A stretch of DNA of 64,000 nucleotides. Origin: Brevibacterium sp. 239c. GTDB taxonomy: Bacteria > Actinomycetota > Actinomycetes > Actinomycetales > Brevibacteriaceae. The position numbers were made by a program, and so were the translations under genes. Each line of letters opens with the position of its first letter. Position 1 is the first letter of the stretch. Below the pieces are notes generated by a model, which worked only from the letters and a program-made list of their open reading frames with translations, did no database searches and was not told the DNA's origin. This document shows positions 6,263 to 12,390 of this stretch, piece by piece. Location of the stretch: the NCBI RefSeq assembly GCF_900169365.1, contig NZ_FXZH01000016.1, forward strand, positions 1 to 64,000. Reading direction: 5' to 3'.

Positions 6263-8680
6263 TTAGGCGTCGGCCATCTCGAGGGCAGTTTCGGGCTTCG
6301 TAGTCCTGGCTCGCACGATCGCGAGCAGGGACATCACGACTCCGATGATCGCCCAGGCCAGCAGGCCACCATAGGCGGCACCCACGCCTGTGGTTCCGGC
6401 GGTGATCGCGGCGAAGCCGTTCATCGCCGGCGTCAGCGGCAGGATCGGTGCAAGGAAGTCGAAGAAGCCGGGCACCGCGCCGATCGTTCGTCCGGCAACC
6501 GCGAGAACCACAGCGATCACGGACAGGAACCTGCCCACGCCGCCAAACCAAGCCACCAGGGCGAAGTTGAGCACCATGAACACCAGCGCGGAGACGAATG
6601 TCAGGATCGCGATGTCGAAGCCTTGGACGGCATCGATGTCCAGCACGCTCACCGCCAGAATCGACAGCACCAGCGCCTGCAGCAGTCCCACGATCACGCC
6701 CGGCACCAAGCCGCGCAGCCAGACGGCCACCGAGGACTTCGTCGAGAGCAGGGTCGAAGCTGGGATCGGCTTGAGCACCGTGTAGGTGACGAGTCCGCCG
6801 ACCCACAGGGCGAGCATGATGAGCAGTGCGAGCGTCGAGCCTTGCAGCACATTCGTCCCGGAGTCGGAAGTGCTGGGAGCCTTGATGTTCTGGGAGGCGA
6901 CGGTGGAGAGCTTGTCACGCTCCGGGGCCGAATAGGAGGGGACTTCGTCCGCGCCCTTCTTCACACCGTCGGCAAACTTGCCGACGCCTTGCGAATACTT
7001 GCCTGTGCCCTCGGACAGGGTATCCAGTCCGTTCGCAAGGTCAGAGGTGCCGGTTGCGGCGGTTGAGACTCCGGTCGTGTACTTGTCGAGTCCGGTGGAG
7101 AACTCGCCGAGTCCGTCGGAGAGCTGTCCTGCACCGTCGTCGAGTTCACTCGAGCCATCGGCGACCTTGGCGATGCCGTCACTGAGCTCCGGCATACCGT
7201 CAGCGAGCTTCTGATTGCCTTCGGCGACACCGGAGGCCCCATCACGCAAACCCTTCGAGGCCTCGAGCAGCTTCGGAGCGTTCTTCGAGATGTCCTCCAT
7301 GCCCTTGGTGAGTTTGCCGAGACCGTCTTCGAGGCCCTTGACGAACTTGCTCACGCCGTCGCTGAGTTCACCGGCTCCATCGGCGAGCTTGTCCGCTCCC
7401 CCGAGCAGGGACTGTCCGGTGTTCTCGTCCTTCTGTTCCAGACCATCGACGGCACTGTTCAGGCCGCCCGAGGTGCCCTGAAGCAGACCCTGAGCGTAAG
7501 CCTTCTCGATGCCAGCGCAGACCTCATCCGGAGTACCGGCAGGGCACATCTGAGCACGTGCTTGTTTGGCCTCGTCTTCAGTCATCACGCCCGCTGCAAC
7601 GAGTGAGTCCAGCCCGGTCACGGTTCCGCTCTTGGCGAGCTTATCGGCCTGGTCGGCCCCCTCCTGGAGACCGTCGCGGTACTTCCCGAGACCCGAAGAC
7701 AGACCCTCGGCGCCTTCGGAGACTCCCTTGGCCCCCTTGTCGAGGTCCTTGCCACCCTTGATCAGATCATCGACTCCTCCCTCACCTGAGCCGGATTCAC
7801 CTGCACCGGCAAAGCCCTTGATGATCGCATCGATGGATTTCGTGTATTTATCGACACCGCCGGAGAGCTCTCCGGCACCATCGGCCAGCTTCTGCGTGCT
7901 CTCAGGCAGGTCCGCGGTCTGCTTCTTCATGTCCTGCAGACCACCCGAGAGCTCGGACGTGCCCTTCGACAGTTCGTCAGCACCCTTGGACAGGCCACCG
8001 GCACCCTTGTTGAGTTCGGCGCCCGATGAGTCCAGCTTCTCCATGCCGTCGGAGAGTTCGTCTGCACCACTCGCGGACTTCTTCGTGCCCTTCGCCAGGT
8101 CCTTGCCGCCGTCGTCGAGTTCACCAGCGGCGTCGCCCAGATCCTTCATCTGGTCGCCCATGTCGTTGAAGCCGACGTACATCTTGTCGAGGTAGTTCTC
8201 GGTCATCTTCGTGTTGAATGTCGTGCGTGCCACCCCTGCCACGGACTGCGCGATCTGAGTATCGGCTGCCGGAGCGATTCCGGAGACGTCGACGTCGAGC
8301 TGAGTCTGCGTTGCAGATTTGGCGTCGCTGACCGAGGTCACGGCCCGAGAGAAGCCTTCGGGGATCGTCAGGGTCGCGGCGTAGGTTCCGTCAGACATGC
8401 CCTTCTCGGCATCGTCTTGGTCGGTGATGACCCAATGGATGTTCTTATCGTCTTCACCCACGAGCCCGCTGGTCAGCTGCCGGCCGATCGGCACGGTCTT
8501 ACCGTCCACCTTCGCGCCGTCATCATTGTTGACGATCGCGGCCTCGATCGTGTCGAGGCGATCGGTGCTGTTGTACGTGGCCATGATGAATCCGGCGGCC
8601 ACGATGATCGGGATGAGCACCAGACCGAAAAGGGACAGCCAGGTCACGGGCCGTTTCGAGTTCGCACGTTCGAGTCTCAC
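6263..8680 (-). CDS. YhgE/Pip family membrane protein
   Basis: An 805-residue protein with one N-terminal membrane segment (residues about 13-35), a long extracellular region, and about six C-terminal membrane segments from about 615. This is an ABC-2-permease-like topology. The extracellular part contains many copies of an 11-residue-like motif such as LSDGAGELSDG or LADGMPELSDG, expected to form long helical coiled rods. Family members include the phage-receptor Pip and YhgE, and many sit with ABC or MMPL transporters; their true function is unclear. The GTG start overlaps the MMPL stop by 4 bases (GTGA), so the two are translationally coupled. Two cysteines, in MCPAGTPDEVC, may form a disulfide. 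Confidence 0.85.
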   Translation of the reverse strand: MRLERANSKRPVTWLSLFGLVLIPIIVAAGFIMATYNSTDRLDTIEAAIVNNDDGAKVDGKTVPIGRQLTSGLVGEDDKNIHWVITDQDDAEKGMSDGTYAATLTIPEGFSRAVTSVSDAKSATQTQLDVDVSGIAPAADTQIAQSVAGVARTTFNTKMTENYLDKMYVGFNDMGDQMKDLGDAAGELDDGGKDLAKGTKKSASGADELSDGMEKLDSSGAELNKGAGGLSKGADELSKGTSELSGGLQDMKKQTADLPESTQKLADGAGELSGGVDKYTKSIDAIIKGFAGAGESGSGEGGVDDLIKGGKDLDKGAKGVSEGAEGLSSGLGKYRDGLQEGADQADKLAKSGTVTGLDSLVAAGVMTEDEAKQARAQMCPAGTPDEVCAGIEKAYAQGLLQGTSGGLNSAVDGLEQKDENTGQSLLGGADKLADGAGELSDGVSKFVKGLEDGLGKLTKGMEDISKNAPKLLEASKGLRDGASGVAEGNQKLADGMPELSDGIAKVADGSSELDDGAGQLSDGLGEFSTGLDKYTTGVSTAATGTSDLANGLDTLSEGTGKYSQGVGKFADGVKKGADEVPSYSAPERDKLSTVASQNIKAPSTSDSGTNVLQGSTLALLIMLALWVGGLVTYTVLKPIPASTLLSTKSSVAVWLRGLVPGVIVGLLQALVLSILAVSVLDIDAVQGFDIAILTFVSALVFMVLNFALVAWFGGVGRFLSVIAVVLAVAGRTIGAVPGFFDFLAPILPLTPAMNGFAAITAGTTGVGAAYGGLLAWAIIGVVMSLLAIVRARTTKPETALEMADA

Positions 8681-11547
8681 GACTGCACGCCTTCCATTTC
8701 GCTGCGACCGGCCGCATGCGCCTGCACGCCGCCGTTGTCATTGTCGGTTCCACGCTCAGCCTCGGGCTTGGCCTCATCGAGGTCGAGGTGGAAATAGTTC
8801 GTATGTGGGGACAGCACTCCGCTGACGTCACCGTCGGGCAGACCCAGCACGATTGCCGTGCCTTCGGCCTGCAGATCAAGGAGGAGTTCCCGAAGATCGC
8901 GTACGTCCCGGTCTTCCTCATCGGCCAGTGCACCGGCTTCGCTGATGATGAGCAGGTCCGGTGCCGAAGTACGCAGCTGTGAGAGCTCACGTGCCCCTGG
9001 CATCTTGCCCGGCCCCTTCTTATCCAGGTCGAAGTACGGAACTCGGCGACGGATTCGTCCAGCATGTTCGGGCAGAACCATGTCACCGATCTTCATCTCG
9101 CCGGCGGTCAGTCCTACGCGACCCGAGAGGGCGAGCAGAAGCGCCTTGCGGGCTTGGCCGCTGGCGACGAGGATCTGGCCCGGCAGCAGGGAGATGTCTA
9201 CCTGGGAGAATCCGCGTCGACCCGAGCTGACCGCGATGCCGCGGCCATAGACCCGGTACGCCGAGTCTGGTTCCGGCCAGTCCCGCAGCGCCACCTCGTG
9301 AGCCAGGCCCTCACCTTCGACGTCGAGTCTGGGCAGGATGCGGTCGAGCCACTTCGGCAGCCACCAGGCTTTGTCGCCGAGCATCTGCATGATGGCGGGT
9401 ACCAGGGACATGCGCACCAGGAAGGCATCGACGAAGATGCCGGAGGCCAGGGCGAGGGCGATGGATTTGATGATCGGCTCGCCCGCCGGGACGAAGGCGG
9501 CGAAGACGGAGAACATGATGATTGCCGCGGCCGAGACGACCCGAGCGGAGGAGGCGAAGCCGGCCTTGATCGCGTCGCGTGCGCTGGCTCCGTGGACATA
9601 GGCCTCACGCATGCCGGAGACGAGGAAGACCTCGTAGTCCATGGCGAGTCCGAACAGGATGCCCATGAGGATGATCGGCAGGAAGCTGATCACCGGTCCG
9701 GTCGAATCGATGCCCAGCGGACCGGCGAAGAGACCGTCGTGGAAGACGAGGACCACGGTTCCGAAGGAGGCGAAGACGGAGAGGAGGAAACCGCCTGTGG
9801 CCTTGATCGGCACCGCGATCGACCGGAAGACCATCATGAGCAGGATGATCGAGAGGCCGACGACGAAGATGCCGAAGGGAACCAATGCCTTGCCGAGTTG
9901 GTCGGAGACATCGATCTGGATGGCTGTGGCACCGGTGACTGCGGTCTCGAAGCCGTCTTCATCCTCGATGTCCGAGCTCAGCGCCCGGAGCCGGTCGACG
10001 GTGTCGAGAGTCGCGGGATCCTCGGAGCTGGTGGTGGGGATGATCTGGAACAGAGCCGTCGTCGCATCCCGGTTCGGGGTGGCGAGGATGACCTGGTCGA
10101 CTCCCTCGACGTCTTCGATCTCGTTCTCGATCTTCTCAACATCGTCGAGGGGGTCATCGGAGGTCACGATCTCACTCGTCATGACCAGCGGCCCGTTGAA
10201 GCCGGGGCCGAAGTGTTTGTCGACGAGGTCGTAGGTGGTGCGGGCGGGAGTGCCCTCCTCCTGGCTGCCTGCGGTCGGCAGGGAGAGCTGGAGGTTGGAG
10301 GCGGGGATCGCAAACAGTGCGAGTCCACCGACGATGATGACGACTGTGAGCAGCGGAATCTTCGTCACCACGCGCAGCCAGCCAGCGAAGAACTTATTCA
10401 TGATCGTCGGCGGGTACGGTTCACCTGCCTCAGCTTCCGCCTCGGCGGCAATCGAGTCCCGAGAAGTCGACTCGTCTGACTTCTTCTGGGCGCTTGCGAA
10501 GGCCCGGCGGTAGCGTTTGGTCGGTTTGGGTGTGATCTTGGCCTTGACCAGTCCCAGCAGCGCCGGAACCATCGTCAGGGAGATCAGGACTGCGATGACG
10601 ACCGAGCCGGAGGCACCGATGCCCATCACGGTGAGGAACGGGATGCCAGCCAGGGACAGTCCCAGCAACGCGATCATCACGGTCATACCGGCGAAGACCA
10701 CAGCCGATCCGGCGGTGGCAACGGCCCGTCCGGTGGCTTCGAGCGGGTCGTGTCCTTCGGCCAGGAGGGCCCGGGCTCTGGAGACGATGAAGAGGGCATA
10801 GTCGATGCCGACCGCCAGGCCCAACATCAGCGCCAACATGATAGAAGAGGAGTTGACCGCACCGAAGGCCGTGGACCCCACGACCAGAAGGACGGAGATG
10901 CCGACGCCGATGAGCGCTGTGATCAGGGGCATGCCGGCGGCTCGGAAGGATCCGAGTGTCAGCAGCAGGACGATGAAGGCGATGACGACGCCGATGCCTT
11001 CGACCCAGGAGATCGCGACACCGGTGATCTGGAAGAGTTCGCCGCCGCCTTCGACCTGGGCGCCGTCCGGCAGTGCGTCGCGGAGCGGATCCAGTTCGTC
11101 CAAGAGCTTATCTGGGGCGTCCTCGCCGACCTCCTGCTGGGTGCCGTCGTACTGCACGGAGATCATCGCGGCGGATTCGTCGTCGCTGATGGCGCCCTTG
11201 ACCATTTTGTCGAAGGGTGAGGTCACAGTGTCGACGTGCGGGAGGTCTTCGAGCCGATCGACTTCCTTCTTGATCTCATCCTTGTATGTGGGTGCCTTGA
11301 CCGAGTCACCATCGGCGGCGACGACGATGACGTCTGCGGCGACGCCCGAGGCTTCGGGGAAGGTCGCCTTCATCGAGTCAAGTGCGACCTGGGCTTCGGA
11401 CCCGGGGAGGGTGAAGTCGTCGTCGAAGTCCTTCGCGAAGGCTGCGACACCTGCACCGACGAGTCCGAAGATCACCAACCACAGAGCAATGAATCGGATG
11501 GGAGTGCGATAGGCACGACGACCCAGGGCGTACAAGAATGTTGACAC
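8677..11547 (-). CDS. MMPL/RND transporter with C-terminal pseudo-NBD
   Basis: A 956-residue MMPL-family (RND superfamily) exporter. It has two repeats of one plus five membrane segments, with typical segments GLAVGIDYALFIVSRAR and GLAMDYEVFLVSGMREAY. After the last membrane segment (about residue 730), an extra domain of about 190 residues aligns by eye with an ABC ATPase. It has DISLLPGQILVASG leading to ARKALLLALSGRVGL (about 794) where Walker A would be, then LLIISEAGALADEED (about 864) like Walker B plus D-loop. The Walker A GK[ST], signature LSGGQ and H-loop His are absent, so it should not hydrolyse ATP. Transport substrates may be lipids or envelope precursors, by family analogy. It is coupled to the YhgE gene and faces a TetR gene. 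Confidence 0.88.
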   Translation of the reverse strand: MSTFLYALGRRAYRTPIRFIALWLVIFGLVGAGVAAFAKDFDDDFTLPGSEAQVALDSMKATFPEASGVAADVIVVAADGDSVKAPTYKDEIKKEVDRLEDLPHVDTVTSPFDKMVKGAISDDESAAMISVQYDGTQQEVGEDAPDKLLDELDPLRDALPDGAQVEGGGELFQITGVAISWVEGIGVVIAFIVLLLTLGSFRAAGMPLITALIGVGISVLLVVGSTAFGAVNSSSIMLALMLGLAVGIDYALFIVSRARALLAEGHDPLEATGRAVATAGSAVVFAGMTVMIALLGLSLAGIPFLTVMGIGASGSVVIAVLISLTMVPALLGLVKAKITPKPTKRYRRAFASAQKKSDESTSRDSIAAEAEAEAGEPYPPTIMNKFFAGWLRVVTKIPLLTVVIIVGGLALFAIPASNLQLSLPTAGSQEEGTPARTTYDLVDKHFGPGFNGPLVMTSEIVTSDDPLDDVEKIENEIEDVEGVDQVILATPNRDATTALFQIIPTTSSEDPATLDTVDRLRALSSDIEDEDGFETAVTGATAIQIDVSDQLGKALVPFGIFVVGLSIILLMMVFRSIAVPIKATGGFLLSVFASFGTVVLVFHDGLFAGPLGIDSTGPVISFLPIILMGILFGLAMDYEVFLVSGMREAYVHGASARDAIKAGFASSARVVSAAAIIMFSVFAAFVPAGEPIIKSIALALASGIFVDAFLVRMSLVPAIMQMLGDKAWWLPKWLDRILPRLDVEGEGLAHEVALRDWPEPDSAYRVYGRGIAVSSGRRGFSQVDISLLPGQILVASGQARKALLLALSGRVGLTAGEMKIGDMVLPEHAGRIRRRVPYFDLDKKGPGKMPGARELSQLRTSAPDLLIISEAGALADEEDRDVRDLRELLLDLQAEGTAIVLGLPDGDVSGVLSPHTNYFHLDLDEAKPEAERGTDNDNGGVQAHAAGRSEMEGVQS

Positions 11548-11588: not shown

Positions 11589-11742
11589 TGTTGTTGACTC
11601 ATAGCCCTCGGCGCAAATGCATCAGGAGATTCGTGCAGATTCCCATCGGATGCCCAGGCCCACACCCACTCGCAGCGTGCCCCAGCAGCAGCACCGCAGC
11701 TGCGACACCGCCACCGCTCCCGCCACGACGATGAAATGTTCG

Positions 11743-12390
11743 ATGAATACAGATAATCTCAGCGCCCGCAGACGGCACACCCGATCCACCCTGGTGGAGG
11801 CTGGTGTGTCCGTCTTTGCCGTCAAAGGCATCGATGGGGCCTCGATCGAAGAGATCTGCGAGGCGGCCGGGTTCACTCGCGGCGCGTTCTACTCGAATTT
11901 CTCCAGCCGCGACGATCTGGTCCTGGCCACGATCGAACAGCGCACCTCTCACGACCTCGACATGCTCGACGCCAGCATCGAACGGTGGCGCGATCGGCTC
12001 AACTCCAGCCGGCCTGAGGACATCGAAGGCTTCCTCAGAGAGTTCATCGACGACACGTTCAGTCAGAAGAGGGCCACCGCCGCCGAGGTGATCGCTGAGC
12101 ATGAGATCGAGCTGTACTGCCTGCGTACGCCGGGCCTTTATCCCAGGTACGCGGAGCTGAACTCCTTCCAGGGGCAGCGGATCCAATCGCTGATCGAAAA
12201 CGCCATCGGCTTCGCTGAAGCGGCAGCGACGATTCCACTCAGGGACCTCATCGAGGCCCTCACCGCCATCCATTCGCAAGCCTCCCTGCGCGCGGCTGCG
12301 GGGAAGAAGCTGCACGAGGTCGTTGACATCGACTCGACCCGGATGGTGCGCATCCTCAGTCGGCTGCTCGACTTCTCGCAGACGCCCTAG
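11743..12390 (+). CDS. TetR family transcriptional regulator
   Basis: A 215-residue TetR repressor from the chosen ATG. The helix-turn-helix is near residues 25-60 (GASIEEICEAAGFTRGAFYSNFSSRDDLVLA), followed by an all-helical ligand domain. Upstream in-frame starts at 11731 and 11617 exist, but the extra residues look non-homologous and rich in Pro, Thr and Gln. No start has a good Shine-Dalgarno, so the start is uncertain. It is divergent from the MMPL-YhgE operon, with a double palindrome between them, and so probably represses that operon and itself. The inducer is unknown. Confidence 0.85.
   Translation: MNTDNLSARRRHTRSTLVEAGVSVFAVKGIDGASIEEICEAAGFTRGAFYSNFSSRDDLVLATIEQRTSHDLDMLDASIERWRDRLNSSRPEDIEGFLREFIDDTFSQKRATAAEVIAEHEIELYCLRTPGLYPRYAELNSFQGQRIQSLIENAIGFAEAAATIPLRDLIEALTAIHSQASLRAAAGKKLHEVVDIDSTRMVRILSRLLDFSQTP

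Follow-up and report, generated by a model that had tools for sequence, protein, structure and literature searches.

What is the domain at the C terminus of this MMPL protein, and to which transporter does it belong? RND/MMPL and ABC exporters are regarded as distinct superfamilies that draw on different sources of energy; in this protein, parts of both share one chain. The locus (Table 1) lies in a stretch of 64,000 nucleotides from Brevibacterium sp. 239c, hereafter the window. An earlier note on the window had proposed that the tail is a dead ABC nucleotide-binding domain (NBD), perhaps tied to the coupled YhgE protein, which was given an ABC-2-like topology, and that together with the TetR regulator these proteins form an uncommon hybrid export unit. 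As described below, the first of these claims held, those concerning YhgE gained support, with docking still inferred, and the word 'uncommon' in the last proved wrong.

Table 1. Coordinates of the MMPL-NBD fusion gene, its parts and its neighbors in the window
Feature	Position	Strand	Remarks
MMPL-NBD fusion gene	8677..11547	minus	956 aa ORF, GTG start
MMPL (RND-type) transporter part	9325..11547	minus	residues 1-741; Asp-Tyr pairs D249-Y250 and D637-Y638
Tail of the MMPL protein	8680-9324	minus	last ~190 residues are a degenerate NBD
Junction DVEGEGLAHEVALRDWP	9274..9324	minus	equivalent motif in tail-less MMPL relatives
Core of the degenerate ABC NBD (helical subdomain absent)	8776..9258	minus	identified by profile and fold
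Walker A / P-loop remnant SGQARK	9145..9162	minus	three residues short of a real P-loop
Conserved stretch VLPEHAGRIRRRVPYF adjoining the former Q-loop	9031..9078	minus	conservation above domain mean, as in several neighboring segments
Walker B-like strand LLIISE	8938..8955	minus	LVVID or LVVDD in relatives
YhgE/Pip protein	6263..8680	minus	805 aa; ABC-2/type-V-like membrane domain and long coiled-coil ectodomain (membrane domain predicted by model)
TetR-family regulator	11617..12390	plus	divergent from the operon; TetR_N E 3e-12

A degenerate nucleotide-binding domain at the end of an MMPL protein

The fusion protein met the criterion for MMPL membership, matching the Pfam MMPL profile (PF03176) at E 1.9e-84 (283.9 bits, cut-off 20.5). 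Its best NCBIfam match was MmpL3, but with 217 bits against an equivalog cut-off of 1400 it is not MmpL3. Because the alignment with the MmpL3 profile stopped near residue 743, at the junction, the tail is unlike the MmpL3 C-terminal domain. The presence of both Asp-Tyr pairs, which we take to be the presumed proton relay, a role known from work on MmpL3, makes proton drive of the MMPL part plausible. Under strict patterns, the first Asp-Tyr motif was found in all 62 fused rows of our MMPL set and the second in 52 of them, and 8 of 17 tail-less MMPL rows had both. Two further MMPL proteins are encoded in the window's genome, both without an NBD tail. The start of yhgE overlaps the end of the fusion gene by 4 bases, and a tetR-like gene was also present near many related loci.

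Searched as a single sequence, the window tail had no match in Pfam, and the Pfam, NCBIfam and PDB searches together revealed no ABC relationship; phmmer against PDB returned only MmpL3-type chains aligned at the junction and one weak unrelated match. The relationship emerged with a family profile based on an alignment (A1) of 30 of the 40 available tails from the genus. This profile matched 220 PDB sequences at E<=10, the best being FtsE at 2.7e-5, and 59 of the 60 best-listed matches were ABC-type by name, the other being labelled 'Lipase B'. In the reverse direction, ABC_tran matched 11 of the 30 A1 members weakly (best E 0.001), the window tail not among them. With an AF2 model of the tail (mean pLDDT 81.3), Foldseek found 586 PDB matches at E<=1e-3 (best E 2.5e-9), and the 50 listed were ABC proteins by title except for 7ekl and 7ekm ('Mitochondrial outer membrane protein'). 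VIA gave Z scores up to 15.3 (156 residues aligned, rmsd 3.4 Å), with Z>=8 in 983 of 998 chains.

The domain is also decayed. The motif-like pieces listed in the earlier note were all present in the stated order, and the features it listed as missing, GK[ST], LSGGQ and the H-loop His, were all absent. The Walker A pattern GxxxxGK[ST] was not met, with SGQARK in its place, and in 10 of 10 Brevibacterium rows the P-loop was three residues shorter than in real NBDs. Both the LSGGQ signature and the helical subdomain were missing: the corresponding region had 17 residues in the window tail and 15-17 in Brevibacterium tails, versus 63-99 in full-length relatives. Also missing were the Walker B Asp, the catalytic Glu and the H-loop His (LLIISEAG and LGLPD stand instead). 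The tail thus fails all tested hallmarks of a functional ABC ATPase, an inference from sequence alone. A1 had 25 invariant columns, including junction DVEGEGL, G49, G56, G68-R69, G75, K78, V83, P85-E86, R92 and P96. We conclude, with respect to both fold and decay, that the C-terminal ~190 residues form a degenerate ABC NBD.

Linkage of the domain to yhgE in Actinobacteria

Relatives of the tail outside the genus indicated which transporter it came from. At the order level, 12 of 20 further stretches contained a free-standing, signature-less NBD directly upstream of yhgE. The other eight comprised two fused copies (one a fragment), two plain flanks without matches and four ordinary ABC ATPases; the last (L119, L121, L123 and L126), which have the usual motifs and no YhgE, were rejected as unrelated. 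An alignment of 11 of these free-standing YhgE-linked NBDs (A2) matched A1 in a profile-profile comparison with probability 99.3 and E 1.3e-20. At the class level, all 20 stretches picked from the stronger matches had the NBD adjoining yhgE; the overall class-level tally of 389/394 should not be read as a family count, since ordinary ABC ATPases inflate it. As a side observation, the class-level NBDs of L172-L176, L178 and L180, which adjoin yhgE, had GR instead of GK in the P-loop.

When named genomes were scanned with an NBD alignment, 80 loci were obtained, 20 fused to MMPL and 60 free-standing. In 78 of them yhgE followed the NBD on the same strand, the matched domains being 21-178 bases apart. 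In the remaining two, both free-standing, the NBD frame ran to the end of the stretch, so that 58 of 60 free-standing loci had yhgE downstream. Free-standing NBD-yhgE pairs occurred in Brevibacterium, Kineococcus, Streptomyces, Mycobacterium, Micromonospora, Herbiconiux, Cryobacterium, Slackia and Eggerthella, among others. Because these loci were found with patterns that included GKT, their Walker A count (77/80) is biased; Walker A was present in 23 of 33 NBDs found by profile. Considering fusion loci alone, yhgE lay downstream of the fusion gene in 79 of 80, and the remaining stretch ended 85 bases past MMPL. The link of the NBD to the neighboring yhgE is thus shown, and we regard it as nearly certain that the tail is, and originated from, the NBD of YhgE. 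Both kinds of homolog that the earlier note had suggested looking for, those with the domain as a separate gene and those with an intact Walker A, were found.

The YhgE protein itself matched pip_yhgE_Nterm (148.4 bits, cut-off 96.15), fell below the cut-off for pip_yhgE_Cterm (78.4 versus 102.2 bits) and matched the ABC-2 family ABC2_membrane_3 (PF12698) at E 1.1e-21 (77.7 bits, cut-off 31.6). Profile matches and an AF2 model give it an ectodomain in the form of a long coiled coil that contains XXXLXXG repeats. Because of this long ectodomain, plain Foldseek with the YhgE model returned mainly coiled coils, and the ABC-2 protein PmtCD appeared only at rank 38 (E 0.57). In VIA, all 50 listed rows were ABCG, ABCA, Pdr5-Cdr1 or ABCH proteins (Z 15.6-18.1), and Z 8 was reached by 143 of 877 aligned chains. 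The model superposed on ABCG5/G8, ABCG2, Pdr5, ABCA and ABCH, with ~220 residues at ~4 Å for most rows. It should be kept in mind that VIA merely re-ranks Foldseek matches and that Foldseek's own list for YhgE was led by coiled coils. The membrane part of YhgE is therefore predicted, by model, to be ABCG/ABCA-like and hence type-V-like; ATP-driven transport with a cognate NBD is inferred.

A probable single fusion, repeated decay and selection on the tail

Relatives of the fusion protein included free NBDs, complete fused NBDs, and partly and fully decayed fused NBDs. Sixteen tail-less MMPL relatives ended 16-74 residues past the start of the motif equivalent to the junction, which places the fusion point at, or close to, the original end of MMPL. 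A tree of the MMPL part with 78 rows separated these 16 from the 62 fused rows by one branch (support 100/99), and this split was present in 200/200 and 1000/1000 bootstrap trees. L085, whose MMPL match is in pieces, was omitted from the tree, and the careful version also omitted L181, which has a very long branch. In the NBD tree, a branch with an SH-aLRT of 96 grouped 26 of 27 fused rows to the exclusion of all free-standing ones. The exception, L188, had a very long branch and was placed elsewhere, and many branches of this tree were weak. It appears probable that the NBD was fused to MMPL only once. Among 20 MMPL loci searched, 16 of them tail-less, none had mmpl, nbd and yhgE side by side as three genes. 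In one tail-less locus without YhgE (L191, genome G534), a 210-aa ORF (6395-7027, minus strand) convergent to the MMPL gene showed weak similarity to the fused NBD profile (E 1e-10).

Some of the decay preceded the fusion. Among 113 full-length NBDs (85 free-standing and 28 fused), GK[ST] was present in 100, LSGG in none and a DE Walker B in one. These NBDs are not independent, since named loci and other genomes overlap. The absence of LSGG and, in nearly all, of the catalytic Glu implies that decay began before fusion. Unusual traits of the YhgE NBD thus predate the fusion, and its ancestor was perhaps no vigorous ATPase.

The fused copies showed the later steps. Eight rows (L163-L170) had a complete NBD with both Walker A and the helical region; in named loci of Aeromicrobium and Planobispora, the fused NBD was likewise complete, with Walker A intact and the same junction. 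In L166 and L163, a single chain scored above the Pfam cut-offs of MMPL and ABC_tran alike. Two fused rows, L183 and L078, kept Walker A and had lost the helical region, and L183 gave no ABC_tran match at E<=0.001 despite its Walker A. Conversely, L188 (G076) kept the helical region and had lost Walker A, and L185 (G547) had lost Walker A and partly kept the helical region, indicating that the two losses occurred in either order. Of the 62 fused rows, the remaining 50, including that of the window, had neither feature; L125, with 13 residues in the helical region, was counted as having lost it. On the tree, and with regain excluded, the minimum number of losses was 5 for Walker A (3-6 over 1000 bootstrap trees) and 3 for the helical region (2-4), the latter rising to 4 (3-6) if the partial region of L185 counts. 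A search of plasmids with the fused NBD of L166 found nothing. A separate observation concerns a Propionibacteriaceae MAG (L282), in which a fused NBD had an intact Walker A and matched only query residues 1-114; it is possibly another copy that lost the helical region.

The tail core is under purifying selection. In 161 close pairs (dS 0.1-0.6, identity >80%), the median dN/dS was 0.267 for the tail core (range 0.056-0.693) and 0.168 for the MMPL part; an estimate on 637 pairs (core 0.60, MMPL 0.37) was discarded because it included saturated pairs. When 52 fused tails without the helical region were divided into seven segments, conservation was highest at the junction (2.66 versus 1.44 overall) and also exceeded the overall mean in the segment beside the former Q-loop (1.96), the segment adjoining it on the preceding side (1.94) and the P-loop region (1.78).

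The fusion is also widespread, and it was here that the description as 'uncommon' failed. The gene occurred in 57 of 57 genomes of the genus, with matches reaching the tail, although some were in pieces in the search table. Of the 297 genomes of the order, no fewer than 60 (24 from Brevibacterium; 8 families) had fused copies at E<=1e-15, counting genomes with a match starting at profile position 1. Weaker matches in two further families of the order were also fused, as judged by sequence; the 62 fused tree rows represent ten families within the order and another three within the wider class. As the genome searches scored only part of the candidates (e.g., 10 or 11 per genome), these counts are lower bounds.

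Brevibacterium genomes offered a natural test of whether YhgE has another NBD. In 8 of 12 genomes there was one YhgE and no strong free-standing YhgE-type NBD besides the dead tail, the best free-standing match being 3.5e-20 or weaker, which leaves YhgE there without a recognizable NBD except that tail. The other four, including that of the window, had one extra YhgE-type NBD (1.4e-60 or better) and a second YhgE. In the window's genome, this second yhgE and its NBD (L161, G000:C19:79033-82135) lie on the same contig ~70 kb away, and the NBD keeps its Walker A (GPAGSGKT); the two form a paralogous system. At the DNA level, this second YhgE region showed ~85% identity over 7.5 kb to a B. aurantiacum sequence and 83-86% to the next seven matches. 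The 12 genomes were not a random sample: eight had been chosen for a single match in the order-level search, of which G056 proved to have a second NBD, and G008, among the other four, proved to have none. Gene pieces were counted once, and one assembly (G013) was fragmented. In addition, each of the 12 genomes contained many weaker ABC matches, and generic NBDs could in principle serve YhgE.

Possible role of the tail and known systems

The account that we consider likely is that a former NBD of YhgE was fused to MMPL, decayed there, and now acts as a clamp to YhgE; the contact is inferred, without a complex model or an experiment. In this scenario, the nbd gene of a YhgE exporter joined the 3' end of mmpl, probably once. 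Separate losses of Walker A and the helical subdomain followed in several lineages, the window copy losing both, with the core fold retained, including the stretch near the former Q-loop. In ABC transporters, it is near the Q-loop that the NBD receives the coupling helix of the membrane domain. The tail would thus be a cytoplasmic clamp that holds MMPL against YhgE at the NBD-permease contact site, a docking role that is inferred and that we think likely. Energy would come from the proton-driven MMPL, and YhgE, which combines a membrane domain with a long extracellular coiled coil, would be the permease or an envelope-spanning partner. Two MMPL tails per YhgE dimer would be expected, the operon is presumably under TetR control, and a lipid or some other hydrophobic compound is the probable cargo; all three points are inferred.

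The stepwise loss of the ATP site in fused NBDs suggests that one transporter's engine was replaced by another's. That proton drive took over from ATP as the energy source for YhgE is inferred, and here our confidence falls slightly short of even. The same reservation applies to a bolder reading, for which the balance of evidence is not quite sufficient: a proton-driven RND-type pump would have covalently captured the NBD of an NBD-YhgE exporter and would power export, whereas the NBD would have lost ATP binding about five times and survived as a coupling only. If docking is true, a primary transporter was turned into a secondary one by motor replacement, and YhgE/Pip, known mostly as a phage-infection protein, gains a role as an ABC-type membrane domain with a partner. 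If the bolder reading is also true, there is a proton-powered RND/ABC hybrid exporter that is widespread in Actinobacteria and undescribed in the literature searched. We found no description, by title or abstract, of an MMPL-NBD fusion or of an NBD for YhgE in that literature, which left out most subscription papers and preprints.

Several observations speak against the clamp. The tail core has a higher dN/dS than the MMPL part, it has lost the helical subdomain, which forms part of the usual docking groove, and conservation on the Q-loop side hardly exceeds that of the adjoining segment or the P-loop region. Also to be weighed against it are the decay that preceded fusion, the other ABC NBDs of the cell that might serve YhgE, the lack of a genome with mmpl, nbd and yhgE as separate neighbors, and the coiled coils that led the plain Foldseek list for YhgE. 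The rival that best survives is that the dead NBD is a regulatory or sensor domain within MMPL that does not dock to YhgE. It is unlikely but possible: the fusion puts the tail beneath the MMPL membrane domain, and none of the seven segments is as conserved as the junction itself. However, the free-standing NBD is linked to yhgE and not to mmpl, and yhgE stands behind the fusion gene in nearly all fusion loci. Less likely is an asymmetric NBD dimer in which the dead tail pairs with a live NBD in trans, e.g., from a second YhgE operon. The Walker A-bearing free NBD of the window's genome fits this idea, but 8 of 12 (non-random) Brevibacterium genomes lack a second such NBD, and the tail has lost the helical subdomain, on which a canonical NBD dimer depends. 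Finally, a functionless relic persisting by chance would fit the repeated loss of catalytic features and a dN/dS above that of the MMPL part, but is very unlikely given the retention of the tail in all 62 fused tree rows across those families, its dN/dS of 0.267 in close pairs and its invariant positions outside the ATP site.

The fusion protein can be compared with several known systems. It shares MMPL domains and Asp-Tyr pairs with MMPL/MmpL3-type RND transporters, but differs from MmpL3 in its score, far below the equivalog cut-off, and in its tail. The window YhgE has the ABC-2 membrane domain in common with type-V ABC exporters (ABCG, ABCA), and differs from them in its ectodomain, the long repeat-bearing coiled coil. 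In other Actinobacteria, the NBD gene adjoins yhgE, whereas in the window the NBD sits on another transporter and has no ATP site. By analogy, the closest functional parallel is mycobacterial MmpL7 with DrrABC. DrrABC, which has been assigned to the type V ABC exporters, is required for PDIM export, a process that also involves the RND protein MmpL7 (PMC11539658). As in the arrangement proposed here, an RND/MMPL protein and a type-V ABC exporter take part in one export pathway. However, DrrABC includes a dedicated ATPase subunit, DrrA, and MmpL7 is not known to carry a fused NBD; the fusion protein has its NBD within the MMPL polypeptide, with no ATP site left. If docking is true, the fusion offers a physical model for cooperation between RND and ABC transporters, such as that of MmpL7 with DrrABC.
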